Below are positions 909 through 64,000 of a stretch of DNA of 64,000 nucleotides, piece by piece (position 1 is the first letter of the stretch; each line of letters opens with the position of its first letter). The position numbers and the translations under genes were made by a program. Origin of the DNA: Trichuris trichiura (taxonomy: Eukaryota; Nematoda; Enoplea; Trichinellida; Trichuridae). The notes beneath the pieces were generated by a model that did no database searches, had not been told where the DNA came from, and saw nothing but the letters and a program-made list of their open reading frames with translations. The stretch covers positions 682,001 to 746,000 of the forward strand of contig JBAJFE010000045.1 in assembly GCA_037903355.1 (NCBI GenBank), given 5' to 3'.

Positions 909-1616
909 ATGGGCGATAAGCGAGTCAAAAAGCAGGTTGGGTTCTTCCAAATTTATCACGATGACCAACAATTTCGTGATATGGCAATGAATCAGGGGAA
1001 GGCGGCAAAAATGGGATGTGGACCCAGTCAGCGTCCGGTGGAACATGAAACTGTTTGGGCAACAGATCACCCAGCCGCTGGGCCATTGCTGGATGAACTA
1101 ATTGACGCACTTGTTTACGCTAAGTGTGATATCCAACGTGCCGATGATGCTGCGGCTCAAAGTGTAATGACCCTTCGCTCCTGTATGCAAAGTGATGCTC
1201 AAAACTTTCAATCTTGCGCTGGTGCAAGCATGAAATCAGTCGCCTTAGATCCTGAACGTATGAAAACTGTTCTTCAATCAATGCAAAAACAGCAACAACA
1301 AGGGGGTGCTCCTGGTGCAGGTGATAAAGAAGGCGTAGAAAAGGCATTAAAGATGCTTGAAGCGGTGAGCAAAGAGAAAAGAGCAACGAACATTGATGAA
1401 ATAGAGCAAATATTAAAAATGCTTGAGCAAAATGTCAGCCTGTCTGCTGATGGAATAAAACAAATGTTCGATAATTTGATAAAAGATAAAACAATTACTG
1501 AAGCTGAAGCGAAGGAGCTCCAAGAACAGCTTATGAAAAAGGCGGTTGACGGAAAAGTGCCAATGGTCGAAGTTCGTCAGGCTCTTAAGGAGTTCACTTC
1601 AAAGAAGAAAGCTTGA
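909..1616 (+). CDS. Unidentified 235-aa protein, inverted duplicate copy 1
   Basis: This is an intronless open frame from an ATG to TGA encoding a hydrophilic 235-residue protein. I do not recognise the family. The N-terminal third contains several cysteines, a Gln-rich Gly/Ala linker follows near residues 128-140, and the C-terminal 95 residues are charged, probably helical, and end in KKKA. There is no signal peptide or membrane segment. A second copy at 6442-7149 on the other strand differs at only five or six residues. The first eight codons differ at many synonymous sites yet keep MGDKR, which supports real protein-level selection. The shared sequence continues into the 3' flank to about 1760. 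The downstream site that reads AATAAA in copy 2 reads AGTAAA here (1743-1748). Lack of introns could mean retrocopy origin or a naturally single-exon gene. Confidence 0.8.
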   Translation: MGDKRVKKQVGFFQIYHDDQQFRDMAMNQGKAAKMGCGPSQRPVEHETVWATDHPAAGPLLDELIDALVYAKCDIQRADDAAAQSVMTLRSCMQSDAQNFQSCAGASMKSVALDPERMKTVLQSMQKQQQQGGAPGAGDKEGVEKALKMLEAVSKEKRATNIDEIEQILKMLEQNVSLSADGIKQMFDNLIKDKTITEAEAKELQEQLMKKAVDGKVPMVEVRQALKEFTSKKKA

Positions 1617-4546: not shown

Positions 4547-4649
4547 CTGTTAGTATTAACAGTAATACCAGTGGAGAAAGACTAAGGAAGCTTTTGTTAG
4601 TATATTTGGCGCTTCTCGGTACGAGACTGTAGGTTTTCATGATTAATTT

Positions 4650-4826
4650 GTTTCTTTTTACGGAGTATGTCCCGTTAAGGATACAATAAACTTTTAATCT
4701 CCGAAGCTTTCGAGACGCGCGTGACCCGTCCGCTGAGTACCGCTGAGGACGGGCAATGCGCCCCGAAAGCTTCGGAGATTAAAAGTTTATTGTATATTTA
4801 ATGGGACATACTCCGTAAAAAGAAAC
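4650..4826. repeat. Fold-back repeat A with hammerhead-like core
   Basis: The arms begin GTTTCTTTTTACGGAGTATG and end with its complement at 4826; each arm is about 65 nt and includes CTTTTAATCTCCGAAGCTTTCG. On the plus strand the central part reads CTGAGGA (4743-4749), a C, a GGGC...GCCC stem, and GAAAGC (4765-4770). The same terminal box (ACGGANTATGTCCCGTT) and the same CTTTCGGGTC-like centre occur at the end of the Penelope-like element (54300) and in fold-back B (62915). It looks like two element ends fused tail to tail. There is no coding capacity. Confidence 0.75.
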
Positions 4827-5526
4827 ATACATTTGGCACAGCTAAAGCATCAACAGAGACAAAGAATTCGATGTCAACAAAATATAGTTGTCCATGCCCC
4901 AAAATTGCGAACTGATCTTAGACATTCAAAATATTGTGGGGCACTTGCGGTTAGCAGTCTGGCCTGCTAAACGAAGCCTTAACCTTCTTGCAAACGTGAA
5001 AGCAGTTCTATACAGATTGCAACGCCCTTTTTAACACGCTGACGGACAGAACAAGGTCAGACCCAGAAATTACGTTTATTCGTTTTGCTTATGCGATTGA
5101 AGTCTTCACGTCCTACAGACTGCTTAACAGGACAGATTCATAGATCGACAAAAGTGCTTGAAAACTCAGCACCTTGCACAACGAACAGGCTGTAAACCTT
5201 TGCGTCAAACTTTTACGGCTACTGCCCGTTTTTTAGCGTCAGTACTTGTCATTGAACGAACCGCCTAACAACGAAAACGGATTAGAGAAACAAAAGTTTA
5301 TTAACGCTTGAATTTCTTCGATTCCACAACCAGCCTTTTCCATCAACGGGCGTAAAAGTATTCAGACAAATATATGGAGTTCATTTTCAACATGGACCTA
5401 TTTGTTGGGACAAGACGTTTGGCTGCTGTAAATTCCATAGCTATCGTAAGTACTAGAAGAAGTTCTAACAAGGGATATAGATAAGTAAGAGCCTGAAGAC
5501 TGGATGCTTCTTAACGGGTCTGTGGA
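4827..5526. other. No gene recognised
   Basis: This AT-rich stretch between two fold-back repeats has no open frame of note, no convincing splice-bounded exon and no RNA gene that I can recognise. It is probably intergenic or decayed transposon sequence. Confidence 0.5.
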
Positions 5527-5792
5527 TTTTCATGATTTAAAATTCTTTATTGCGGCTTTATCTAGCGCGTTGATAATGGCTGAAATAAAACCGAAGCAAA
5601 TGCCATCATTACCATCATCACTGACGACGGGCCAAGGTTAGTCCTGAAAGCTCCGAATCTGCTAAGTGCTTGTTCTGAATTTTTCCTTAATAGTTGCTCA
5701 TCCATTCGTTGGTAGAGCATTTGCTTCGGTTTTATTTCAGCCATTATCAACGCGCTAGACAAGGCCGTAATAAGAATTTTCCATCATGAAAA
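5527..5792. repeat. Fold-back repeat E with degraded hammerhead-like core
   Basis: Two arms of about 80 nt (5527-5607 and 5713-5792) are inverted copies; each contains GCGCGTTGATAATGGCTG and GAAATAAAACCGAAGC or their complements, and the outer ends read TTTTCATGAT and its complement. The roughly 105-nt centre holds, on the plus strand, CTGACGA (5621-5627), a C, GGGCC, a loop, GTCCT and GAAAGC (5646-5651). That is the same motif order as in the other fold-backs, with one mismatch in the stem. Confidence 0.7.
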
Positions 5793-6441: not shown

Positions 6442-7149
6442 TCAAGCTTTCTTCTTTGAAGTGAACTCCTTAAGAGCCTGACGAACTTCGACCATTGGCA
6501 CTTTTCCGTCAACCGCCTTTTTCATAAGCTGCTCTTGGAGCTCCTTCGCTTCAGCTTCAGTAATTGTTTTATCTTTTATCAAATTATCGAACATTTGTTT
6601 TATTCCATCAGCAGACAGGCTGACATTTTGCTCAAGCATTTTTAATATTTGCTCTATTTCATCAATGTTCGTTGCTCTTTTCTCTTTGCTCGCTGCTTCA
6701 AGCACTTTTAATGCTTTTTCTACACCTTCTTTATCACCTGCACCAGGAGCGCCTCCTTGTTGTTGCTGTTTTTGCATTGATTGAAGAACAGTTTTCATAC
6801 GTTCAGGATCTAAGGCGACTGATTTCATGCTTGCACCAGCGCAAGATTGAAAGTTTTGAGCATCACTTTGCATACAGGAGCGAAGGGTCATTACACTTTG
6901 AGCCGCAGCATCATCGGCACGTTGGATATCACACTTAGCGTAAACAAGTGCGTCAATTAGTTCATCCAGCAATGGTCCAGCGGCTGGGTGATCCGTTGCC
7001 CAAACAGTTTCATGTTCCACCGGACGTTGACTGGGTCCGCATCCCATTCTTGCCGCCTTGCCTTGATTCATTGCCATATCACGAAATTGTTGGTCATCGT
7101 GATAAATTTGGAAGAACCCAACCTGTTTTCTCTGTCTTTTGTCACCCAT
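6442..7149 (-). CDS. Unidentified 235-aa protein, inverted duplicate copy 2
   Basis: This is the second copy of the gene at 909-1616, on the opposite strand, full length and intronless. The residue changes are RVKK to RQRK at positions 5-8, K38 to R, M147 to V and V150 to A. From codon 9 to the 3' flank the nucleotide match is about 97 percent by eye. Codons 1-8 (7126-7149) and the upstream region are very different at the DNA level. The 3' flank retains a canonical AATAAA. The product is soluble and hydrophilic, with cysteines in the first half and charged helices in the second; no function can be assigned. The Gln-rich Gly/Ala linker is conserved. Either copy could be the better expressed one; this copy has the intact poly(A) signal. 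Confidence 0.8.
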   Translation of the reverse strand: MGDKRQRKQVGFFQIYHDDQQFRDMAMNQGKAARMGCGPSQRPVEHETVWATDHPAAGPLLDELIDALVYAKCDIQRADDAAAQSVMTLRSCMQSDAQNFQSCAGASMKSVALDPERMKTVLQSMQKQQQQGGAPGAGDKEGVEKALKVLEAASKEKRATNIDEIEQILKMLEQNVSLSADGIKQMFDNLIKDKTITEAEAKELQEQLMKKAVDGKVPMVEVRQALKEFTSKKKA

Positions 7150-20649: not shown

Positions 20650-23600
20650 CTATGGCTCTTCAATTGATTTCCCATCGTTGCAACCAAACCACCATTCCCC
20701 CGTCGATCGAGGATAACCCGGTAACACCTGAAAAGCAAAATCATTACAAAGAAATTTCAAGCAGCAATGGAGCAAAAGGGGTAGGCGAAAAGTTGGAATA
20801 AAAGCAATCGCAAATAATCGGTGCCAACAAAACAAAGGTGCCCCAACCTTCATTACTCTCCACCCGCTGAGGCGATAATAGTAAGGTCCGGCGAAAATGT
20901 AATTTTTTCCATTCGTCCACGTAAACGCTGCGTCAATTTTGCTTGTAAAATTGGACGAAATCGTTTTGATCAATCGAGGCCAAAGGGCTCTTTCGCTTGA
21001 GGTTAAATGCTGCCAAAAAAATTTGCCTAAACAAAGAAAAGCAGCGTCTGCCCCCGCCGGCGTACGGGACGCCAACATCCTCAATGCTACCTTTAAAAAA
21101 GTAAAAGCGTTGATCGTACGCCCATATCATAGCGGCGTCCAAATTTTCTGGCGTGTCCGGAAAAGCGGATGACATATTTTTCGGGTTATTTGCAGCCGCT
21201 TTTCCTTCAGCGTCGTACTGCCAATACTTGTCCTCCTACATACCTCGTTTGTTATTCATCATGTCAGAAATTTCGCAAAATGATTAACACTTTCCTAACG
21301 TTTCTATCTATCATCGAAGCGCACCTTGAAAAAGTAGGTGTTCCCGAGCTTGTCCGTTACAGCCGCATCTATATGGTCCGGCAGGCCGTCCCAGTCATCG
21401 GCAATTCGTCTTGGATAGCCTTCGTCATAGGATAGTTGGTTCAATCGCCAGTACCATTTACCTATAATAAAGAGTTTATCGTAGACTTAAAATTCAACAC
21501 AGTTTGCTATCAACCCTGAAAAGCGTAAGTTGATCCATTTCCAATAACAGTAATGGTATCAAGAACCGCATTTTTGCATATGTCAACTTTGTTCAGCAGT
21601 GAATTAGGCTGCTGATTAAAGTAACCACTTCCATCGTCGGTTACTTTGTTCGATGGCCAAATAGTCTCGTCTGCAGGCGATCCTGTTCACAAAAGACAGC
21701 GGTTTAAGTTAGGCGCTGAATTTGCATATTAAAGTTGCACCAACTACCGTACAAATAGTGAAGTGCATCCACATCGTCCGAATGTAATCTTATTTCGTTG
21801 CTTAGGTGAGATTGATAAAACGGGGCCATCAACGCATTACTGTTCATTGAGTGCTTCAACCCCAATGAATGTCCAATTTCGTGGGCAGCTACCGCGTATA
21901 AGTCTAGCCCTGCAAAGGGATAGAGAAACGGAAACAATATGCAAGGAAAACTTTTCTTTGACTTGTCACCTTTAGCGGGTCCAGGATTCCAAGCTTCGTC
22001 ATCATCAAAATGAATACTGCCACCATATTGGGGAAAGAATGCGTGGGCCAAAATTCCGCCTATAACATAAAATGACACATCCGTAGCCTTGTTAAGTTTA
22101 TCAAGCCTGTAGCATTGGCCGACATGGCTTAACTACAATTATTACAAGACTGAAGAAGGTAGACCTTAATGATAGCGGCTTCACAAAGACAATGTGCCGT
22201 ACCTCGTCCATCGAAGGGTTCACCATCACCATGCATCTTCTTAACAAAAGCTATGTCGATGTTGGCCGTACGAGAGGGCACCTGTTTGAATCGAAGCAGC
22301 GAATGCTGCTCCCATACCTGTACGAGGAAAAAATTATCACAATTTGTATTCGCATAAATGAGCTCACTCAGGTCGATGTATCAGTTTATTTTAGAGAAAA
22401 CAAGAATATAAATTAGAGATCAAACATTAACTGCGAACGATTACTGTTCAGCATTTCGTGTTCTCCAAAGGCGTGCATATACTCCTCTAATTAAAATTTT
22501 AAACAATGCGCGCTGTGTGAATCTTTTCCACAACGTTTTAAGTTCTTGTCAACATAAAGAGTTACAGCTTTTTAAGTCGCTAATGTTGAAACAACGTAAA
22601 TAAACTTTAATGTCCGCCGGTGTGCCCTATTTGAGTCAATGTCAACCAGCAAATCACAAGCGTGATTTATTCTGAACCAATGTATTGCCGGGATGCGACT
22701 GAAGAAAATATTTTCTTTTCGTCAAGTTTCCTTTGGAAACCTCCGCGAGGGCGGATGCCTGCGAACTCGCTATGAAGGAATACAACTGCTTTTCTTCGCG
22801 CAGAAAGATGCTGGCTCGACGATATGGTGAAGACTTTACTTCAGATGTTCTGGAAATCCCGACTCGTTAAAAAGTAAAGCACAGGGAGACCCTGACTTAC
22901 GCTGGGTTCAACATCAACACACATTCGCTTCGAAATGTTTATTTTGTTCCTTTCTAACGCTACCGACTAGCAGTACAGTATTTTTAAATCCTACAACTCA
23001 GCACTAGAATGAACAATCGACGTCAACGGAACGCGCCGTGCCGCTTATGTTTATTATATATATATTCTGCTTTACAGTTCTCCATTCCGTTATGGTTGAA
23101 CATACCGGTTACATCTTAATGGGTCAGCAAAGTTTCCCTGCGTTTACGACATTCGTTTTTCCTTGCTAATAACTCATGGCTAAACTAACGGACGACGAAC
23201 AGATATGATTTAGAGAATGATGGTCATAAGTTAAACGCATTACAGAGTCCAGAACACATCTGTCACCTTCGTGTGCATGTTCCATCTGATTTTCACACTC
23301 TTACAGACGTTCATGTTGATAGATAGGGACAGTAAACCTTGAATGCTCTTATGATTTAAATATGCAAAACGAAAGTTCTCATCCTTACTCATAACCGTCA
23401 ATTCGTCTGTTCTTTTGTTACCAATACCGCTTGTTTTGTTCTGATCTTTTTTTTAGCGGGATTTTTGCCCATTTTTTAGTAACGTTTATTTTATGTCTAT
23501 ATTAGACGTATTTGCGAAGCTTTCAAGCATTGCCGTGGCCCATCATCAGCGGTTCAGCCGGAGACCTCGGCCGTCAGGTCTATCTTGACCCGTCGGGCCT

Positions 23601-26102
23601 TGGTCTCACCTAGTCAGTTAGACTTCGCAGCTAGCACTCAACGGACCTTCCACGAGGGCGGCACATTAACAAAATAGGAGCAACGAGCAAACCAAACGAC
23701 ATGTACCCGTCAGTTTTAAGCAAACGGGTTTTAAACCCTTTTTTTCCCGCCACTCCGTCTTCTTTCTTCTCCATCGTTGTCCACTTTTTCTTCGTGCCCG
23801 CTTGCACTCGATTTAGTTTTCTTTTTCCTTTTTCTTCTCCTGTAACGGGCGTTCAGAGATTTTGTTCTGATCTTTTTTTGGCGAGATTTCAAGAGAAGAA
23901 AAAGGAAAAAAGAAAACTAAATCGAGTACAAGCGGGCACGAAGAAAAGGAGAACAACGATGGAGAAGAAAGAAGACGGAGTGGCGGGAAAGAAGAGGGTT
24001 TAAAACAAACGGGTATAGGTCGGTTGGGTGCTCGCTGCGAAGTCTAACTGACTTGGTGGGACCGAAACCTGATGGCTCAAGACAGAGCTGACGGCTGACG
24101 TCTTTGCCAAGGTTGGTCGGATGGGGCAGCTTGCTACCATAAAGATCGACCCAACGGGCGACACAAAGTGCGCTGATGACGGGCCACGGAAAGGCCTGAA
24201 GGCTTTGCAAATACGTTTATAAAATAAGCGTTACTAAAACCCGGCCAGAAATCTCGCTAAAAAAGAAGTGAGATTTCTGGCCGGGTTTTAGTAACGTTTT
24301 CCTTTCTGAACGCCCATTACAAGAGAAGAAAAAGAAAAAAGAAAATTAATACCGTTTGTTGTCAAAGGCAATACGTCATCACAGGTGTTAACAGTACAGA
24401 ACTCTACAATATCGGCGAAGATCCTGCCACGTCTTCTACTTCTGTTGAAAAGAATAAACGTAAGAGGCAGGTGATTACTTTCGAGACAAAGGACAACGTA
24501 ATTACACTGCAAAAAATGGCAAACCGGTAACGCACTTTGCATGTAAGCTACGTCTTCCGCAATCGATGATCTCAACGATTTTGAGTCTCAAAAGCAAACC
24601 TCTGTTGAAATGAAAATGTCACATTTGTTGTTGCCTATCGTACGGATAAAGTGATAGATGCGGAAGAACGTTCCTCTTAGCCTTGTGACAGTCCAGGCAA
24701 CTGGTCAGAGGCGCAGGAAAGAATTGTATCTGAAAGAGTTCACAGCGAAAAAATTGGCAGAGGGCTTTGCTACTATAAGCAGCAGCGTACAGGTCTTAGA
24801 AGAAATGAATGACAATTGCGAAAGACTTGCAAAAGTTGATTGGCATATTCAAAATGCTCTCGCTTGCTCCTGTGAAATAAACAAAAAAACAGAGAAGAGT
24901 GTATGAACAAAACTCGATGCCATCCTAGAGTTGTTTACGCCTGGTACACGATCAGTCACCAAAAGACTGCCTTCTACCAGCTACCATTGAGTCAAGCAGG
25001 AAAAGAAGTTCATGGCATTGACGCTGTATTATTATTATTATTATTATTTTTTCTGCAATATCAGTTGGGTGCATCGAACATTGTTACGAATGAGTGTTCT
25101 CATAAGTTTATGTACACTAATAGCTGCCATTAACAGAGTTACATTTTGTTAACGGGAACCCCTGTATACATAAGCTTGTTAACTGCAGGAGAACGCAGTA
25201 TGTTGAATGAAGAGTGTTCTTACTTCTACTTAAGAGGAGCAACTGTGACAGTTAAACTTAGGGAAAAAGAATTCAAATACAGTTGCATCACTCCCTGTAG
25301 TACCGTGAATTCCATACTCCTGTATATCCATCTATTCGATTCAACGAATGTTGATTTAATTAAGCAGAGAAGAAATTTATATTAAACAAAGGTTTTTTCT
25401 TACCCGGAAAGCCTTCTTTACGGCATCCTCTATGGATACGGGGTCAGACGATGTGCTGTAGCGACTAATTGAGTAGGTTAGGTTGCTGGATGCCCAATAA
25501 GAACCTGTAAAAGCCTATCCACTTTCAAACATATTCAATACATTAGTAAAAGACGTGCCTTCTACTACGTAACGTTTTTTTCGATTTTTACTCAATTGCT
25601 CGTTGTCGGAAAGGTAGATGTCAGGAGCAGGACAACGGGGTTGAGACATTCTTTCAATTGTTTTGGCGCAGAGGACACCTTAAAAAGCACCTCACTATTG
25701 TTATTATGCTTGTGAACTCCGAGGCATTTCACTGGAGAACTGACCAGTCACCGGCAGTGAAGCAACTTGCTGGAAAACCTTTAACGCTTCAGCGAGCTGC
25801 GCATCAGTTGTGCTAACGTCGGCGCCAACGTTCAAATAACCGTAACGCTTTAGGTAGCGCTGAAAAGAAAAAAAGGTATGAGAAGATTTCACTTTTTCAA
25901 TTATTGCATAGCGATTAGAAATTTGGCCAAAATGGTATACACATACATAGGCTGCCTTATTAGTGGCATTTAAACCAATGCTGGAGAGGTGCCTTTGGAT
26001 GAACGGCTTAGGTAGCGGAACAGAAAGACAACATTCTTTCAAAAATATAAACGTCACGGCGGCGGCAGTTAAGGCCATTGCTTGTATGGCACCTTGAACC
26101 AT
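20650..26102 (-). CDS. Secreted matrix metalloproteinase (matrixin with hemopexin domain)
   Basis: A zinc endopeptidase of extracellular matrix. Exons on the minus strand, with phase-consistent splice joins: 26102-25947 (signal peptide, hydrophobic after Met-9), 25859 to about 25705 (prodomain, RYLKRYGYL), 22317-22203 (HGDGEPFDGRG), 22059-21970 (GGILAHAFFP, calcium-binding HFDDDEAWN), 21909-21748 (zinc site AAHEIGHSLGLKHS with the later Met-turn NALMAP), 21682-21515 (linker and first hemopexin Cys), 21461-21325 (GKWYWRLNQ), 21235-21091 (DKYWQYD), 21026-20848 (GKFFWQ, KIDAAFTW) and 20727-20650 (WWFGC, closing Cys, stop). Order and length match typical MMPs. I could not find the exon carrying the cysteine switch (PRCGVPD type) or the first catalytic strand; it must lie in 22.3-25.7 kb or be missing. 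That gap holds a composite palindrome and a Tigger relic. Confidence 0.88.
23441..24296. repeat. Composite nested fold-back C, two hammerhead-like cores
   Basis: Outer arms (about 23453-23550 and 24170-24266) are inverted copies. Each carries a hammerhead-like core directed toward the outer end: minus strand CTGATGA (23543-23549) with GAAAGC at 23524-23519, and plus strand CTGATGA (24173-24179) with GAAGGC at 24198. Inside is a second long inverted repeat (about 23704-23847 against 23888-24017, purine-rich on one arm). The right side ends in a 27-bp perfect palindrome. The phrase TTCTGATCTTTTTTT occurs twice (near 23440 and 23864), suggesting rearranged copies of one unit. It sits in a large intron of the metalloproteinase gene. 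Open frames on both strands here mirror each other and are not genes. Confidence 0.75.
24229..24296. repeat. 27-bp perfect palindrome with 14-nt loop
   Basis: The left arm 24229-24255 begins CGTTACTAAAACCCGGCC and is exactly complementary to 24270-24296. It marks the right edge of the composite fold-back and contains the same CGTTACTAAAA box found at its left edge. Confidence 0.9.
24430..24906 (+). pseudogene. Tigger transposase relic: N- and C-terminal ends only
   Basis: Around 24450-24510 the plus strand encodes a piece like the Tigger N-terminal psq helix-turn-helix (KRKRQVITFETKDNVITLQK). From 24658 to 24906 it encodes a piece like the Tigger C-terminus (FTAKKLAEGFATISSSVQVL, then ERLAKVDWHIQNAL). 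The DDE catalytic core expected between them is absent, so this is an internally deleted, non-functional copy of a different Tigger subfamily from that at 3983. It lies in the metalloproteinase intron, antisense to that gene. Confidence 0.6.
25027..25048. repeat. ATT trinucleotide microsatellite
   Basis: Seven tandem ATT/TAT units followed by a T run. It lies within the large metalloproteinase intron. Confidence 0.9.
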
Positions 26103-34752: not shown

Positions 34753-35050
34753 TTTGCCAACATAGCCAACTTTTCCTACTTGTTAAAGTCAAATAGTAAA
34801 CTTGAATGCAATAATACGGAGTTCGGAGAACCGACGTCCAGCATGATCAACGCATAATACTGTTGTTGTTAACAAGGCGACAAGTACAACAAAAAACAGA
34901 CGTAGAATTTGACCGTGTGCGGTAAAAGCGCGTTGAAGTTTCTAACAAACCATTTTCATACACTGCGACTGAAGCGTTAAGTGCCAGTTAGTCACAAGAG
35001 AAAAAGAGCGGTTTACTCCCGTTGTAAATAAGAGAACGCAGCAGTACCCA

Positions 35051-35209
35051 AACGATCAGGGCTTTCACAACCCAACTGGATCCGTCGTCAGCGATAGGAC
35101 ACAAGCCCTGGGCGAAAGGGAGCACTTATCTAGTTTCATCGTTAGCGACAGGCCTTGTACCCTGTTGCTGACGACGGAACCAGTTGAGTTCCGAAAGCTC
35201 CTATCGTTT
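35051..35209. repeat. Fold-back repeat D with hammerhead-like core, inside hAT
   Basis: Arms of about 60 nt, 35051-35108 and 35148-35209, are inverted copies with several mismatches (AACGAT...GCTTTC and complement). The right arm, plus strand, reads CTGACGA (35168-35174), C, GGAAC, loop CAGTTGA, GTTCC, GAAAGC (35193-35198). The 5-bp stem is perfect. The left arm has the same core on the minus strand (35091-35085, GAAA at 35066-35063) with a broken stem. It has been carried or captured by the hAT element. Confidence 0.75.
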
Positions 35210-37720
35210 GTATGCTCTTACCTTCTTTGACTTACAATGGGAATAAACGACTCTTTTTTCTTATGATAAAACTGCTAGACCGTATAAAGACGTTCCATCT
35301 TCATGTGAGGTAGTCTTTGCAAATCTTGACTACAAATCCAATAAATCTTAATAGGAAACTTTTGTCACACAAACCCATTTTCAAGACGAAAGTTTGGCAG
35401 CTGAGCGTGGAAGAAGTTTCGACCAATTCCATATGACTAAGGAACCTTTTTGACCTACGTTCATTCACTCGGCAAAGAAGAGCAGTTACAGGTCGTCTGA
35501 AATACTTAGACCACGCGACTGAAAAACACTGCACACGTGTCAGGAATTAGATTTAGATTCGTTACTGCCTTTTCCATATGGCACAGACCAGTGCAAAAAT
35601 CGAACTTTTAAATTGAAGAGTTTTAAAATGCAGATTAAAAGTTCGTTGTCCGGTTTTCACCAGATCGAAAAGACAACAGCAAATTCATTGTTGAAATCTT
35701 CGGTAAACTGCGTGTCACAGGTACTCTGATAAACGCGAAAGAACCTAGGGCGAGAAAAGAGAAGAGCACAACCACGCAAGAACGGGAGGGGGCCCTGAGG
35801 AGATGTGCGTCTCGAAAGGGGGCCCTGGCGCAGAAAAGGTTGGGAATCACTGGCATAAAAGGACAGCCTGTCAATGGCTTGCTGGTTTTTTTGCCGAATA
35901 TTTTAAGAGAATTCGGAAATCCTAAGTAGAGCGGTCGGGGAGTGGACAATTGAACTAACTGTGTTTACTATTTTCATTGTGCAGCGTTAGGGTTACTGAG
36001 GCCTCCGCGCCATCGTGTATGTCGCGACGTTTTGAGCTGCAATCCTAACGGACATCGTAGATTAAACAATTGAACCATCTTGCTTGCGCTTAAGCCTGCT
36101 TATTCCGTTGCTGCTAAACAAGGCTTAGGCAAAGTCATTGCTTTTTTAGGAAATTGAAAATTATCAACAAGAAGCGTAGTACGGTAATGAAGCGCGTCTG
36201 TATTTTTTTAAAAAAATTCATCTCACCCAATTCAAGCGCATCCTGACGATCGCTGCTTTATGTTATTTTTTTGCTGCGTGAATTTCTCTCTTTCCTAGCT
36301 ACAGTTTAGAACAGAACTTTAAAAGTGGCGAACTCTTGTCGGCCGTCTCTGAAAGTAATGGGCGCAGGTTGAAATACGAACTTTTTGCCTATGGCATAGA
36401 CGCACTTCGCTGAGAGGTTTGCAATGATGAACTTTTAATACGATTAAAACAGGAAGCTTTTCTTGCTACGAAATGACTCATCCATAGACGGTAGTAAACA
36501 GGAAATTAATAACGCTTCAATGGGTCCCTGTTTAGTCATTTATAGTGTCTCTTGTTGCAATGTAAACCCTGTTGAGCCGCATTTGCCGCGCGCATAAATT
36601 TTTACTTCATTCTTGCATATCTTTCGTGTTTTTGTCTTAGCGCGGGACGCGATTGTCTTCTTGTCGGCGAACTATGCAACATTTAGAAACGACCTGACAA
36701 CTTTATCGATCAGAATGAATTTTCGGCGCTACAACATGGCCAAGAAAGACTGGCTGAACGCTTTGAAAGAGGGAGAACCTACCGAGTTCCATTGTGAGCA
36801 ACTGCAAACGTTCTGCGCACAACGAAAGAGAAAAATTCACCGGCAACTACGTGCCACCAATTGTGTCCCCTTTAGCCAGCCTGCTATTCCAGCGTTATTT
36901 CGAACCTTATCGACTAGTCTGTTTTGATCAGAAGCTTCTCTAAAGGCACGCGACTCCGTTCGGCAGCAATACTGTTAAACCATAAAAAGAAGTCAGCCTT
37001 TACTATCTGATCTCGCGCGATTATTAGATGAATAAAAGCTGAGATAGCGCATTTTTCATTTTCGAATGAAGTCTCCATTGATAAAAAAAAAAGAGTTTAA
37101 TACTCGCGAAAGCGAATGGCTATTCTGTTGCTACCGAAGAATGCATTCGCGATCTTCTCACTTTTCTGGCTTGCTTCGATGTTCATACGCGCCGACATTG
37201 CTATACGCACCTAATCAGCTGGTTTATAAAAGCCACGGTAGTTATAATAATAAAGATAAGAGCAATTTCGCCTAAGTCTGCTTCGTAATATTTTCTTTTC
37301 TTCAAGGGTATGGCTCGCAGTTCTCAGGCGTCCGGACGGTATGCTTTTGATTGCCTATTAACCGTTAATACGCGCACAATTTTCTTGCTCAGAGAAGCAG
37401 CGATCCTTCCTACCGTCGTAAGAGGATTTTTCATCAATATTCTCACAGCGAGCTAGCAGGAACACTGCGTCAGCTTTGTACACGCTTAAAATTGATCTTC
37501 ATCGGAATTAATTGAAATTAATGTGAAATGTGAAAAAAACAGTCAACTATTTATGGCGCAGTGGACATTTTGAAAGATGTTCATTCGCCATTGATTTTTT
37601 TGAATGTACCATCAATAGGTTGGGGAAATTGGAATAATGTTGCGCGCTCTCGGCGTCTGCCGACTTCTTGCGAATTTATTAATAGCAAAATTTGAATCCC
37701 CACGTTTAGACGCCCAGTTC

Positions 37721-43505: not shown

Positions 43506-43640
43506 TCAGAGTGTGAGTTTACTGGCCGTCCTGTTCTCTCCTTATCTAAGTCTAAGCCAAAATGTTAGCTTTCCATTTTGGCTTAGGCTTAGATAAGGCT
43601 GGAACATGAAGGGTTGTATGCATTTTTTCCGGTGACGGTC
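43506..43640. repeat. Dispersed inverted repeat with TTAGGCTTAGATAA box
   Basis: It contains two facing copies of a CTTATCTAAG(C/T)CTAAGCC box (43546-43563 and 43577-43598) and then GGGTTGTATGCAT. Related sequence occurs near 53480-53575, 54176-54245 and 56395-56470. It interrupts the minus-strand coding region or its intron. Confidence 0.55.
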
Positions 43641-43719
43641 AAAATCTCGAATAGATCGAAAATGCACTTTAAAGTTTGGCTTCGTGGCTGTTGCGCATTG
43701 GCATCTCCTAGATAAGAAA

Positions 43720-43812
43720 TGTACCTGAGTAGAAGCGTTATTGTACTAAACTTGTTTTTTAGATCACTAACTTTGAAGAAGACCAGTACAATAACGCCTC
43801 TATTCAAGTACA
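43720..43812. repeat. 28-nt imperfect inverted repeat around GCGTTATTGTACT
   Basis: 43720-43747 and 43785-43812 are inverted copies with about four mismatches, separated by 37 nt. Open frames on both strands read through it, so apparent coding here is probably a by-product of the palindrome. Confidence 0.65.
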
Positions 43813-44533
43813 GTCCTTGCCAATGCACAACAGACCATAAAGCCAAGCTACGCAGCGTGTCTTCAACCTATTCGGGATTCGACCTATCAGGATTTGGACC
43901 CTAAACCTATTTTTCTTGTGATGGGACGAGCACGAGAAAATCAAATCTCAAACAGGTATTATTAATAAAAAATTTTAACCTCCTCATATAAGCTTTTGGC
44001 TTATAGGCTACAAGGCCTAAGTAAGCATTTTTTGTGATAACCGAACTAAGTCGATTGGATAGAGAGAGCGCGCTCAGTTGTTTTAAAGGATAAAACACCA
44101 AGCGAAAACGCAGATTGAAACCCTTGGCCTTACTACAAGCATGCGTGTAATGTACTGCGCTTCTCTCGGCTTCGGTGGGTCGTCAGAGGAGAGAAAACTG
44201 TCCCTTGAAAAAGTTAGCCGAAAAAAGCAAAACAAAAGGCCTCGTTGCTACTTGGTTGCCGCTGCCTTTAAATGCGCACTTACAGTGGGCACAACAATTT
44301 TTTAGGACTGAACGTGTTCGCTAGCAAAAATGTACATTCATTGCGGATGGTAAATACCAAAAAACAATATTCTACGTGAAAAAAAACAAGTGAAGCGTAA
44401 AGTGAATATTTTACATACAATACATGCTAACTTCGAAATTAAATTATTACTCTCAAGCCTGCTCATGCTAGCAATAAGCTATCATTTAGAATTAATTTCA
44501 AAAGTGAAGTAACTTTCAGCCATTGACAACAGC

Positions 44534-54297: not shown

Positions 54298-54339
54298 GGA
54301 TGTGTCCCGTTTGTATTCTATATAAAGAGGCTCCGGAGC

Positions 54340-54367
54340 TTTCGGGTCATTCGAGACCCATCATCAG
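54340..54367 (-). ncRNA. Hammerhead-like RNA core at Penelope-like element end
   Basis: On the minus strand: CTGATGA (54367-54361), T, GGGTC, loop TCGAAT, GACCC, GAAA (54343-54340), then GCTCCGGAGC, a 10-nt palindrome that could form stem III alone or in a dimer. Penelope-like elements are known to carry hammerhead ribozymes in their terminal repeats. The extra nucleotide after CUGAUGA and the absence of an obvious UH cleavage site directly after stem III are departures from the canonical motif, so activity is uncertain. Confidence 0.55.
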
Positions 54368-54605: not shown

Positions 54606-56370
54606 TCATCTGGTTAGTGAGCAACAATTATACCGCGTCACAATATTTGTCCAAATCCCACTTATGTCCACTCCTTGATCGCGGTTGTATGTCGTATTGT
54701 GTCTGATATATAGTGCTTCCTTAATTCTTCTTAACCGTAAATTGTTTTCGTAACATAAAACTTTTCGGTGGAGTGCTTGAGTGCATTGCGTCGCGTGTTC
54801 CACTACAGCAGAGGCTTGTTTGGCTTTTTCCATTGTAATTTTTGGGTCCACGATTGGTCTGCCTCGCTGTGTGGTTAGATTGGTGCCATTGTTAAGAATG
54901 GCTTTCGCGTTATTGTAACTTGTGAGTTTTTTTATGTGTTCGTTAAATCTATGCTCTAGGGTGTTTCCGGTTTCACCAATATAAATCCCTGAGCAAGAAC
55001 ATTCAACCGCGTATACTAATCCTGTCTTTTTGTTTGCGGGGATTTTAGTTTTGTCTGCGCGAAGGATTGCCCTGAGGTTGGGCGAACTTTTGAAAAAGAC
55101 TCTGAAGCCTAATCTTTTTCTTAATTGGACAATCTTTTCGCCTAAGCCTGCCACATAAGGAATAACCAGACAAGTGTCCTGCGGAGTGTTTTGCTCTGGA
55201 GACTCACGTGTGCGAAGCTTGTGGTTGAGCACTTGGTTGATAAAGGATTTAGGATAACCGTTTTTGTAGAAGATTTTTCTAATGTAGTTAATTTCTGGCT
55301 GAAGATATTCGGGACTGCATAAGTTGAATGCTCTGTCTATCATTCCAAAGAGGATACCACGCATTACTGATCGTGGGTGATGTGATGAAAAATTAAGGTA
55401 CTGATATGTGTGCGTGGGTTTCCTATACACTCTGGTTTTAAGGCCTTCGCTTGAGCGAATAATTAAGGCGTCTAGAAAGGGCAAAGTTTTGTTATCTTCT
55501 TTTTCCATTGTGAAGACTATTTGGTTAGGACGGACGTTGTTGAGGAATTGTAGAAATTGTTCTTCTTTTCCAGCTTTTATAATGACAAAGATGTCGTCTA
55601 CGTATCTTTTAAAAAGGCGTGGAGCTATGTGTCTGTCTATAGTTCTGAACATTTGTCTTTCAAAGTTTTCCATAAAAATTTCCGCTAATACAGGGGATAG
55701 GGGGCTTCCCATAGGTACTCCGTTAGATTGTTTATAGAACTTGTTATCAAAAGTGAAGTAATTGCCTTCTTGCATGCAAAACGAGACCAGCTTGACAATG
55801 TGAAAGGGATTTAATTTAGTTCTGCTGGGTAGATTTGTGTCCGTGTGGAGGAGATTGTGTAAGGTCTCTAGGGTGTCTGATATTGGGATGCTGGGAAATA
55901 AGTCTTTTACATCATAGCTGACTAAAATCTCGTCGGGTTCCAAACAATAGTTCCTTATTTCGTTGACGAGCGTTTTGCCGTTTTTGACAAACGATGGTTC
56001 CTTGCCTGTTAGAGGTTTGATGATCTTACTTAAGTATCAACTGAGTTCAGTGGTGATGCTGTTAATTGTGGAGACTATCGGTCTAGCGGGATATCTGGTT
56101 TGTGTACTTTTGGGAGACCATAGAGCTCGGGGGGTCTGAAGTTCGATGCAAACTTAAGATATGTTGTCATTTTGGTGATAGCAGGTTCTTTGGTTTCTGT
56201 GGCATATGTGATGAGAAGAGATCGGAGATTTTTTCGGGAAACTTCTGTAGGGTCGGTTGGTAGGGAGGTATAATTGCTGGTGTTCAAGATAGCTGTCAAC
56301 TTTTCGATGTAGGTGCTTCTGTCAAGTAAGACGATTCTATTCCCTTTGTCTGCTTTGGTTATGATTCTGT
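54606..56370 (-). pseudogene. Penelope-like RT/GIY-YIG polyprotein, two lesions
   Basis: The intact part (55943-54606, 445 codons) has the RT fingers/palm motif SYDVKDLFPSIP, primer-grip region NGVPMGSPLSPVLAEI, the catalytic box RYVDDIFV and, in the C-terminal third, a GIY-YIG nuclease (GLVYAVECSCSGIYIGET with a downstream Arg/His helix EHRFNEHIKKL). Upstream sequence to about 56370 continues the family (ITKADKGN; then YGLPKVHKPDIP) but is separated by an in-frame TGA at 56039-56037 and a one-base frameshift near 56085. The canonical protein is longer at the N-terminus. All catalytic residues are otherwise retained, suggesting recent inactivation. Confidence 0.88.
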
Positions 56371-62220: not shown

Positions 62221-62914
62221 CAATGTAAATAACTTCTTATTTTGCTAGACCATCAATAGCTTATGCCCGCGTTTTTCGGCTTTAAAAGTTGATCACCAGA
62301 CGCGGCTAGAAAACAAGCCCGCCTATAGGTTGCAATTGCTTTAGTTGACTTGAAAATCTTTAGTCTACCGGCATTTCCTTTCTTTGTTGCCTCCCCGAAT
62401 AATGCCACCGTTCGGCAAAATGACAAATGCTCTGTTTTCATTGGTACGAACGCCTCGAATTCGTTGATTTTATTTTTTAAAGAAACAACTTTTCCATAGC
62501 CGTTCAATGGGCGCTGGTTGTTTTAACAGTCTGAAAGCTGCGCTCGCGTTGTGGCGCCATAAAGCGGCTGTTGTTTTGTTCCCGGTTGGCAGCAGTTGCT
62601 GAAAGCAGTAGAAACTGTTTTCAGTAGACAGTGTTGACACGACGTAATGTTTACGATTGCTTTAAAGGTTAAAAAACTTGCGAACTGACGCACGCGCGCA
62701 CGTTTCTCATTTTATGTAAACAGTATAGAAACTAAAGATGTTACACTGATGATGAAGTCCAACGCAGATTGAGACATTTCCTTGTTAGATTCAGTCAGCA
62801 TGTTAATTACAGGCTTTGCTTTGATTCTGGACGTTGGGTTCTTCCTGGCTGGCGGTTTATTTTGTTTTGTTCTATGCGTTAGGCTTATTTCCATGATTGG
62901 TAGTAAGTGTAGGT
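62221..62914. other. No clear gene
   Basis: Minus open frames at 62253-62507 and 62712-62894 are short and without motif. The second is basic (KQNKPPARKNPTSR) and might be the tail of an element or a gene exon; nothing confirms either. Confidence 0.35.
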
Positions 62915-63148
62915 GATTTTCATGTTAAACTGTTTCTTTTACGGAATGTATGTCCCGTTTAAAAATTTTTATTTCTCCTGAGCTTTCGGGTCACTCGTGA
63001 CCCGTCTTCAGCGGTATAATATAATAATAATTATTTCTAATTTGAGACCGCCGAAGTCGGGTTACGAGTGGCCCGAAAGCTCAGGAGAAATAAAAAGTTT
63101 TTAAACGGGACATACATTCCGTATAAGAAACAGTTTAACATGAAAATC
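62915..63148. repeat. Fold-back repeat B with the best hammerhead-like core
   Basis: Arms begin GATTTTCATGTTAAACTG and end with its complement at 63148; each arm is about 100 nt and contains the ACGGAATGTATGTCCCGTTT box and CTCCTGAGCTTTCGGG. The left arm keeps a perfect core on the minus strand; the right arm core, plus strand, is mutated (CCGAAGT). A TAA-rich spacer separates the arms. It is built like fold-back A and carries the same terminal box as the Penelope-like element. Confidence 0.8.
62984..63011 (-). ncRNA. Hammerhead-like RNA core in fold-back B
   Basis: Minus strand: CTGAAGA (63011-63005), C, GGGTCAC, loop GA, GTGACCC, GAAA (62987-62984), GCTCAGGAG. Stem II is seven perfect base pairs. 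CUGANGA and GAAA are the invariant hammerhead strands. The mate of stem III, CTCCTGAGCTTT, is available in the opposite arm of the fold-back. Activity is not established. Confidence 0.5.
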
Positions 63149-64000
63149 CGCAGTCCCGTACCAAGAAGTTACATCTACAATATAGGTGATTCTTCTTATC
63201 CGCGGATATTAACAGTCCCACTGCATACTATGCTATTACTTGTTCGGAAGTGCCCGAGGCAATGTCAGTTTCTTAAACAACCGTATGAAATTAAATTATT
63301 AACGCTTAGAAAAATTAAAGGGGGCATTCTTCATAAAACGCAGTATAACGATTAACCGTTTACAAGGGAAAGAAGTCAGCGAAATATAGGCATACATGAT
63401 CAATTAATTTGAATGTTTTTCATAATGAGACGACATGTTTACTTGGGAATTCCTTTGCAGAACTTCAAAACTAACTTATTATTGGTATGGGTACGGGTAC
63501 TATACCTTCTTAGTTTTATCAATGGTCACTATTCTTTATAGGGGATAAAAATGTTATTCAAATAACAAACTAAAACAATTACAGTACCATGCCTTAATAA
63601 AACTTGCGAAAACTATGTGCCTCTTCGTGTGGAAACGATTTGACAATGCCTACGTGACAAGTCGAGCTAAAGCGAATGACGCAGGCAGCGTGATATAGCG
63701 TTAGGCTCTTACTGGCTTTCCGCAGTGGGCGGAAAAAGAATGTCATCCAACTTAGCAATGTTCACGGCTGGCTGTTAGGAGCAGAAGATATCGATGCTTT
63801 TGGGTATCTCTGATAATTGGCATTTTTTTTGTCGGAGCTTCTTGAAAACACATTGTTATTGTCATTTGTCATTCTTTCTTTTAGGCCATAAATGAGATGT
63901 TGCAGTCCTTCACTGATCATTCGGCTGACTGCGTTGCTGCGTCCCGTATAAGTTTCCTAGACTACAGTTTTCTCCTTTAATATTATCTATGCAACTCGAA
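63149..64000. other. No gene recognised
   Basis: AT-rich sequence to the window end. The 95-codon plus frame 63068-63355 starts inside the fold-back arm and is probably chance. A segment after a pyrimidine-rich TTTCTTTTAG at about 63882 could begin an exon that continues beyond the window. Confidence 0.4.

Follow-up and report, generated by a model that had tools for sequence, protein, structure and literature searches.

Small hammerhead variants of Penelope-like elements (PLEs) were reportedly described by Cervera and De la Pena in 2014 and by Lunse, Weinberg and Breaker in 2017. PLEs carry minimal hammerheads that usually lack helix III (PMC6155905), and these perhaps act as dimers (PMC7761336); here and below, papers are cited by PMC number. 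In PAc, a Poseidon element of Anolis, the hammerhead lies at the junction of the pseudo-LTR (pLTR) and the ORF, the start codon is located at the start of stem II, and the cut is 26 bp after the start codon (PMC11167929). According to the same source, the PLE protein cuts and extends both DNA strands, hammerhead cleavage depended on this protein, and insertion, which used mainly unprocessed RNA as its substrate, went on in vitro unaffected by hammerhead mutations; the ends of RNA-seq reads did not coincide with the cut. In Adineta vaga, Penelope insertions contain head-to-head inverted pLTRs with palindromes at the joint, 8–10 bp target duplications and an ORF-start tail, and self-priming was proposed for their formation (PMC3846280). 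Outside PLEs, the plus-strand hammerhead of the viroid CChMVd carries an extra A between A9 and G10.1; a change of this base to C or G was strongly detrimental, while a change to U made the reaction 3–4 times faster (PMC3705267).

We analyzed a 64,000-nucleotide stretch of the Trichuris trichiura genome (the window), and found that an RNA motif repeated in it is most likely the small hammerhead ribozyme of an abundant PLE family. The full motif is CCG-CUGANGA-Y-stem II-GAA-AGCU-H-CGG. CCG directly 5′ of CUGANGA and CGG directly 3′ of GAAAGCU-H make up stem I, for which other families have GCG/CGC, UCG/CGA, UACG/CGUA or UCA/UGA; between them are CUGANGA, a single additional base, stem II from G10.1:C11.1 onward, GAA, AGCU, and the predicted cut after H17. 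Judged from its sequence, the motif reads as a type I hammerhead, a predicted ribozyme whose stem III has shrunk to a self-complementary AGCU. Several of the features that define this type were found: both core blocks (CUGANGA and GAAA), covarying stems I and II with the open end at stem I, and NUH before the cut. An earlier note on the window had described a motif resembling a divergent hammerhead. Its hammerhead-like RNA was confirmed; the divergence was not, because the core, both stems and the NUH rule are in place once stem I and the cut site, which the note had missed together with the flanking repeat, are read. The motif shares with the small PLE hammerheads the core, the type I order, a nearly absent stem III, a location in the PLE pseudo-LTR, and many dispersed copies, and may differ from them in the extra pyrimidine that follows CUGANGA in nearly all copies. 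The features of the window are as follows.

62915–63148, unstranded: fold-back, a head-to-head inverted pseudo-LTR pair (inverted arms)
62910–62918, unstranded: TAGGTGATT, the repeat on the left flank of the fold-back, probably a target-site duplication (direct repeat)
63183–63191, unstranded: TAGGTGATT, the repeat on the right flank of the fold-back, probably a target-site duplication (direct repeat)
63140–63178, plus: PLE ORF-start tail, reading MKIRSPVPRSYIY (sequence)
62982–63011, minus: core of the hammerhead in the left arm of the 63-kb fold-back, CUGAAGA-C-stem II-GAAAGC, with cleavage predicted between 62980 and 62979
63051–63080, plus: hammerhead copy in the right arm of the same fold-back, with an altered core (CCGAAGU) and a retained stem II; cleavage predicted at 63082/63083
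54609–56036, minus: PLE open frame with RVT_1 and GIY-YIG (domain matches)
54338–54367, minus: hammerhead 3′ of the PLE frame; predicted cut 54336/54335
35061–35091, minus: decayed hammerhead copy, stem II broken, GCC for GCU (covariance model)
35168–35198, plus: hammerhead copy, partner arm of fold-back 34992–35266 (covariance model, inverted arms)
23519–23549, minus: hammerhead copy, stem II GGGC/GCUU (covariance model)
24165–24215, plus: copy with stem II GGGCC/GGCCU and GAAGGC in place of GAAAGC, partner of the 23.5-kb hammerhead (between the two are inverted arms at 23562–23648 and 24017–24103)
4743–4770, plus: hammerhead copy in fold-back 4649–4827 (covariance model, inverted arms)
4694–4738, minus: decayed partner of the 4.7-kb hammerhead (covariance model)
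5621–5651, plus: hammerhead copy in fold-back 5527–5792 (covariance model, inverted arms)

Both arms of the fold-back at 62915–63148 contain the motif (minus 62982–63011 and plus 63051–63080), as had been proposed. A covariance model built from eight window loci, a check that the earlier note suggested, scored ten places in the 64-kb window, comprising the PLE end and fold-back arms. The eight model-building copies were recovered at E values of 3.5e-15 to 9.8e-12, a match by construction; the two places beyond the building set were decayed partner arms at 24165–24215, plus strand (5.1e-9), and 4694–4738, minus strand (1.9e-4). The motif is dispersed, as claimed for six loci, with the correction that some arms have an altered core or a broken stem II. 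Likewise, the GGGCC/GGCCU stem reported at 24 kb is present, but belongs to the 24.17-kb arm with GAAGGC instead of GAAAGC, its 23.5-kb partner having GGGC/GCUU. No Rfam hammerhead family matched in the window at the gathering threshold, and none did so with an E-value limit of 10 in four loci and in two short stretches of the window, as is expected for a motif without stem III; a match to this library helps in identification and is not part of hammerhead structure. Matches of fold-backs to Rfam microRNA families were below gathering, reflected the long hairpin, and were rejected.

Across the 62 contigs of the 72.7-Mb genome, CUGANGA-Y-(8–24)-GAAAGCU-Y had 3,989 matches (1,980 + 2,009), and the reversed-pattern control had 13 (3 + 10). 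The abundance of the motif is therefore not due to chance, and corresponds to ca. one strict copy per 18 kb. A fixed-length pattern with 14 nt between the core blocks was at chance level (30 matches versus 38 in the control), and loop length thus matters. Position 17 provides a test specific for ribozymes. With a pyrimidine following CUGANGA, the base after AGCU was C or U in 3,989 matches, A in 611, and G in 114 (13, 4, and 5 in the reversed-pattern controls), so that the NUH rule at position 17 was obeyed in 4,600 out of 4,714 copies, or 97.6% (4,600 U-H versus 114 U-G). A single repeat contributed 28 of 100 G-at-17 copies among the matches listed. This repeat contains GAAAGCUG, has G at position 17, and is probably a dead ribozyme. 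It was seen on contigs C6, C7, C8, C11, C13, C30, and others, in several cases no more than 20 kb from the start of the contig; no obvious telomere repeat was found in the first or last 160 bases, or among the commonest hexamers, of ten contig-end stretches.

Covariation was evaluated on 203 regular-expression matches, which were reduced to 48 non-redundant sequences. Ten of these were dropped for missing stems or for origin in the chance-level fixed-length pattern, giving a 38-copy set whose selection leans toward structure. In that set, 87.4% of 301 cells paired, and 34 cells changed on both sides. Shuffles reached the observed pairing, number of changed cells, and score in 0 out of 500 cases, the seven pairs changed on both sides in 16, and the number of pair types in one. 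When all 48 copies were used, 75.1% of 381 cells paired and 49 changed on both sides; among 500 shuffles, none reached the pairing, the number of changed cells, or the score, 123 reached the pairs changed on both sides, and eight the pair types. Sliding the structure along the 48 copies gave at most 55.8% pairing, with a score of 0.235 versus 0.366 for the real structure. Since the aligned rows are related by descent, the shuffles overstate independence, yet pair types differ between whole families. When only the eight copies of the window were counted, pairing was seen in 82.8% of cells (three of 500 shuffles were as high) and seven cells changed on both sides (8/500), while pairs changed on both sides (204/500) and further pair types (424/500) were not above shuffles. 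The larger sets settle covariation of stem pairing. Compensatory change, described earlier for stem II, is supported for stems I and II in the 38- and 48-copy sets, the eight window copies alone being weaker. The earlier note had made its reading depend on further genomic copies with covarying stems, and the 3,989 genome copies, together with the covariation of stems I and II in the 38- and 48-copy sets, supply them.

The constant nucleotide after CUGANGA, which had been called unusual, is the one feature that stays so: a pyrimidine, mostly C, is fixed between A9 and stem II. Genome counts were 3,989 for Y (C 3,654, U 335) and 132 for R (18 in the control for R), and no copy lacking the extra base was present among 103 distinct copies from sampled loci filtered for both stems. 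The base is unusual in its fixation and not in its kind, since the viroid hammerhead has one extra nucleotide at the same place (PMC3705267); there, however, it is A, and C is detrimental, whereas the T. trichiura motif has mostly C. Our literature search found no report of a fixed extra base in PLE hammerheads, a weak negative because most subscription papers lay outside the search. The spacing from A9 to the cut is 26 nt here, equal to the 26 bp from start codon to cut in PAc, which hints that the Anolis hammerhead may contain the same extra base (PMC11167929). Pairing of the extra Y with G12, giving a longer stem II, was considered and is not preferred, though the folding program favors this pair and the sequence alone is compatible with both arrangements. 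G12 hardly varies, and the only copy with an extra G retains G12. We prefer G10.1:C11.1 with a bulged Y, as it keeps the hammerhead core. It is conceivable, if unlikely, that a hammerhead subclass with a fixed pyrimidine has multiplied beyond 4,000 copies, the extra base acting as a selected brake. Single copies would then be silenced and cleavage restricted to ribozymes that are paired or bound by protein, and RNAs destined for reverse transcription would stay whole. The fixed pyrimidine provides a concrete handle on the question of whether PLE ribozymes are deliberately restrained.

The GC after GAAA, also described as unusual, is explained as the center of AGCU, the self-complementary remnant of stem III. 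AGCU is nearly invariant (GC in 102 of 103 filtered copies) and, because it hardly varies, stem III and the dimer receive no support from covariation. As stem III is cut down to a self-complementary sequence, the active form would most likely be a dimer. Two copies, from separate RNAs or from a single transcript of a tandem pLTR-ORF-pLTR unit, would associate through AGCU–AGCU and CCG–CGG pairing, and so may form two cores that cut after U-H. In the folding prediction, the monomer had a minimum of −13.8 kcal/mol, with stem I prolonged by an AAGA/UCUU extension, stem II, and the extra U paired with G12. The dimer hammerhead had −24.5 kcal/mol; the free cofold minimum was a longer duplex at −41.5 kcal/mol, and not the dimer hammerhead.

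The association of the motif with PLEs, claimed earlier, was evident in 30 sampled PLE relatives (95 of 3,331 candidates were scored). In 26 of these loci, a strict hammerhead core was located on the same strand, 202–361 nt 3′ of the reverse transcriptase (RT)/GIY-YIG match; the other four (L050, L059, L064, L065) had no strict same-strand core downstream of the match. The hammerhead is followed by a short UTR and then, in many copies, by ATGAAA..GGTCCCGTACCAAGA, which we read as the putative start of the ORF of the next unit. The core is 83–100 nt upstream of the element's ATG, within the pseudo-LTR, unlike in PAc, where the start codon coincides with the start of stem II (PMC11167929). At one locus (L040), direct hammerhead copies flank the ORF on both sides. 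These copies, and the short UTR with the next ORF start, correspond to the pLTR-ORF-pLTR layout of PLEs. Further PLE features were found as well: RT with a GIY-YIG endonuclease, a pseudo-LTR with an ORF-start tail in direct and inverted copies, and a short, variable target duplication. A conserved ACGGGA...UCCGUAAUAAA stretch was also seen downstream of the hammerhead, e.g., in L010, L012, and L026.

The fold-backs are most likely short insertions of solo, head-to-head inverted pseudo-LTR pairs of the same PLEs. The spread of the motif in coding-free fold-backs, which had seemed unusual, is explained in this way, inverted head-to-head pLTRs having been published for Adineta vaga (PMC3846280). 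Here, ORF-less pseudo-LTR pairs are common, and the word "hammerhead" is absent from the main text of that paper. When places were anchored on the ORF start, with no hammerhead required, 401 were found (control 0), and 80 of the 100 matches listed were examined. A strict core was upstream in 52 of the 80 and a relaxed core in 54, the rest being mutated or cut short; an inverted partner was within 280 nt in 53. Among 25 hammerhead fold-backs with enough flank, ten had a direct repeat of at least 9 bp near the outer arm ends (null from mismatched flanks, 4.8%), nine had one of at least 11 bp (null 0.8%), and 15 had no flanking repeat of 9 bp. The repeats span 9 to 16 bp. At L032, 35 nt separate the repeat from the outer side of its arm, which makes a target duplication unlikely there. 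The right arm was 32–54 nt longer in nine of the ten repeat-flanked units, and the longer arm read as a PLE-like ORF start in six (L009, L011, L024, L025, L026, and the 63-kb unit of the window) and not in L021, L032, L033, and L035.

Structure and flanking repeats suggest that the pseudo-LTR alone would be inserted, by joining, head to head, two cDNA ends that start in or near the ORF start. Self-priming of nascent cDNA on the stem II hairpin would leave the joint there, and the center of the fold-back was within this hairpin in three of the 80 copies (L083, L088, L137). The RNA of the 63-kb fold-back folds at −156 kcal/mol (z −27.7). The near-perfect hairpin of such a transcript would bury the ribozyme, and fold-back copies are probably inactive passengers. 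Fold-backs without a recognizable hammerhead were also observed in the window, at 43526–43612, 43643–43879, and 24226–24299.

If cleaved RNA were copied, its cDNA would be expected to begin one nucleotide past the cut, leaving a genomic fossil. Copied segments clear of sequence edges numbered 217, in a set where part of the loci had been chosen for holding a hammerhead, which favors upstream ends. Of these segments, 146 began at least 46 nt upstream of the predicted cut, and 69 within 45 nt on either side. Eight were within 6 nt, and none of the 69 was within 2 nt, where ~3.8 would be expected from an even distribution (the ends given by BLAST have an accuracy of a few bases). In the 80 ORF-start-anchored stretches alone, 39 of 132 ends were within 45 nt of the predicted cut, five within 6, and none within 2. 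Thus, there is no sign that cleaved RNA gets copied, in agreement with unprocessed RNA being the main insertion substrate of PAc and with the dependence of its hammerhead cleavage on the protein (PMC11167929). The same lack of excess at the cut fits a different explanation, namely that the motif persists because it serves the PLE protein or reverse transcription as a structure for binding or priming, catalysis being lost or irrelevant. The insertion-neutral hammerhead mutants and the RNA-seq reads not ending at the cut (PMC11167929) point the same way, as does an extra base that is mostly C, strongly detrimental in the CChMVd hammerhead (PMC3705267). However, the bias at position 17 (4,600 to 114) and a fixed core would hardly be expected if there were no stage at which catalysis took place, and we consider this explanation rather doubtful. 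As a separate observation, copied 5′ ends also cluster 20–22 nt after the predicted cut (10 segments).

We are highly confident that the motif is best explained as the type I hammerhead of a large GIY-YIG PLE family, located in the pseudo-LTR, with a dimer as the likely active form and the fold-backs as solo pseudo-LTR insertions. The motif and the fold-backs are thereby explained as one known system, which offers an unusually dense set of copies in which the role of PLE hammerheads can be tested. Long inverted repeats, flanking repeats, and a 63-kb unit that folds as stably as given above would also be seen if the fold-backs were MITE-like DNA transposons, with the palindrome acting as DNA, but their arms hold PLE pseudo-LTR sequence, a PLE-like ORF start ends six of the ten units with a flanking repeat, and both the variable repeat length (9 to 16 bp) and the one-sided 32–54-nt excess of an arm in nine of ten make such an origin highly improbable. 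Spread of some copies as non-autonomous retrozymes through circular RNA is also improbable, though to a lesser degree: three hammerhead copies exactly 475 bp apart on C1 (2085522, 2085997, 2086472) resemble a retrozyme-like tandem, while most copies in the sampled loci stand alone or are arranged head to head.

Elsewhere in the window, two nearly identical 235-aa frames are inverted relative to each other (909–1616, plus strand, and 6442–7149, minus strand); no Pfam match was found for the former. Hemopexin and matrixin matches at 20653–21126 and 21707–22132, both on the minus strand, probably mark a matrix metalloproteinase gene.
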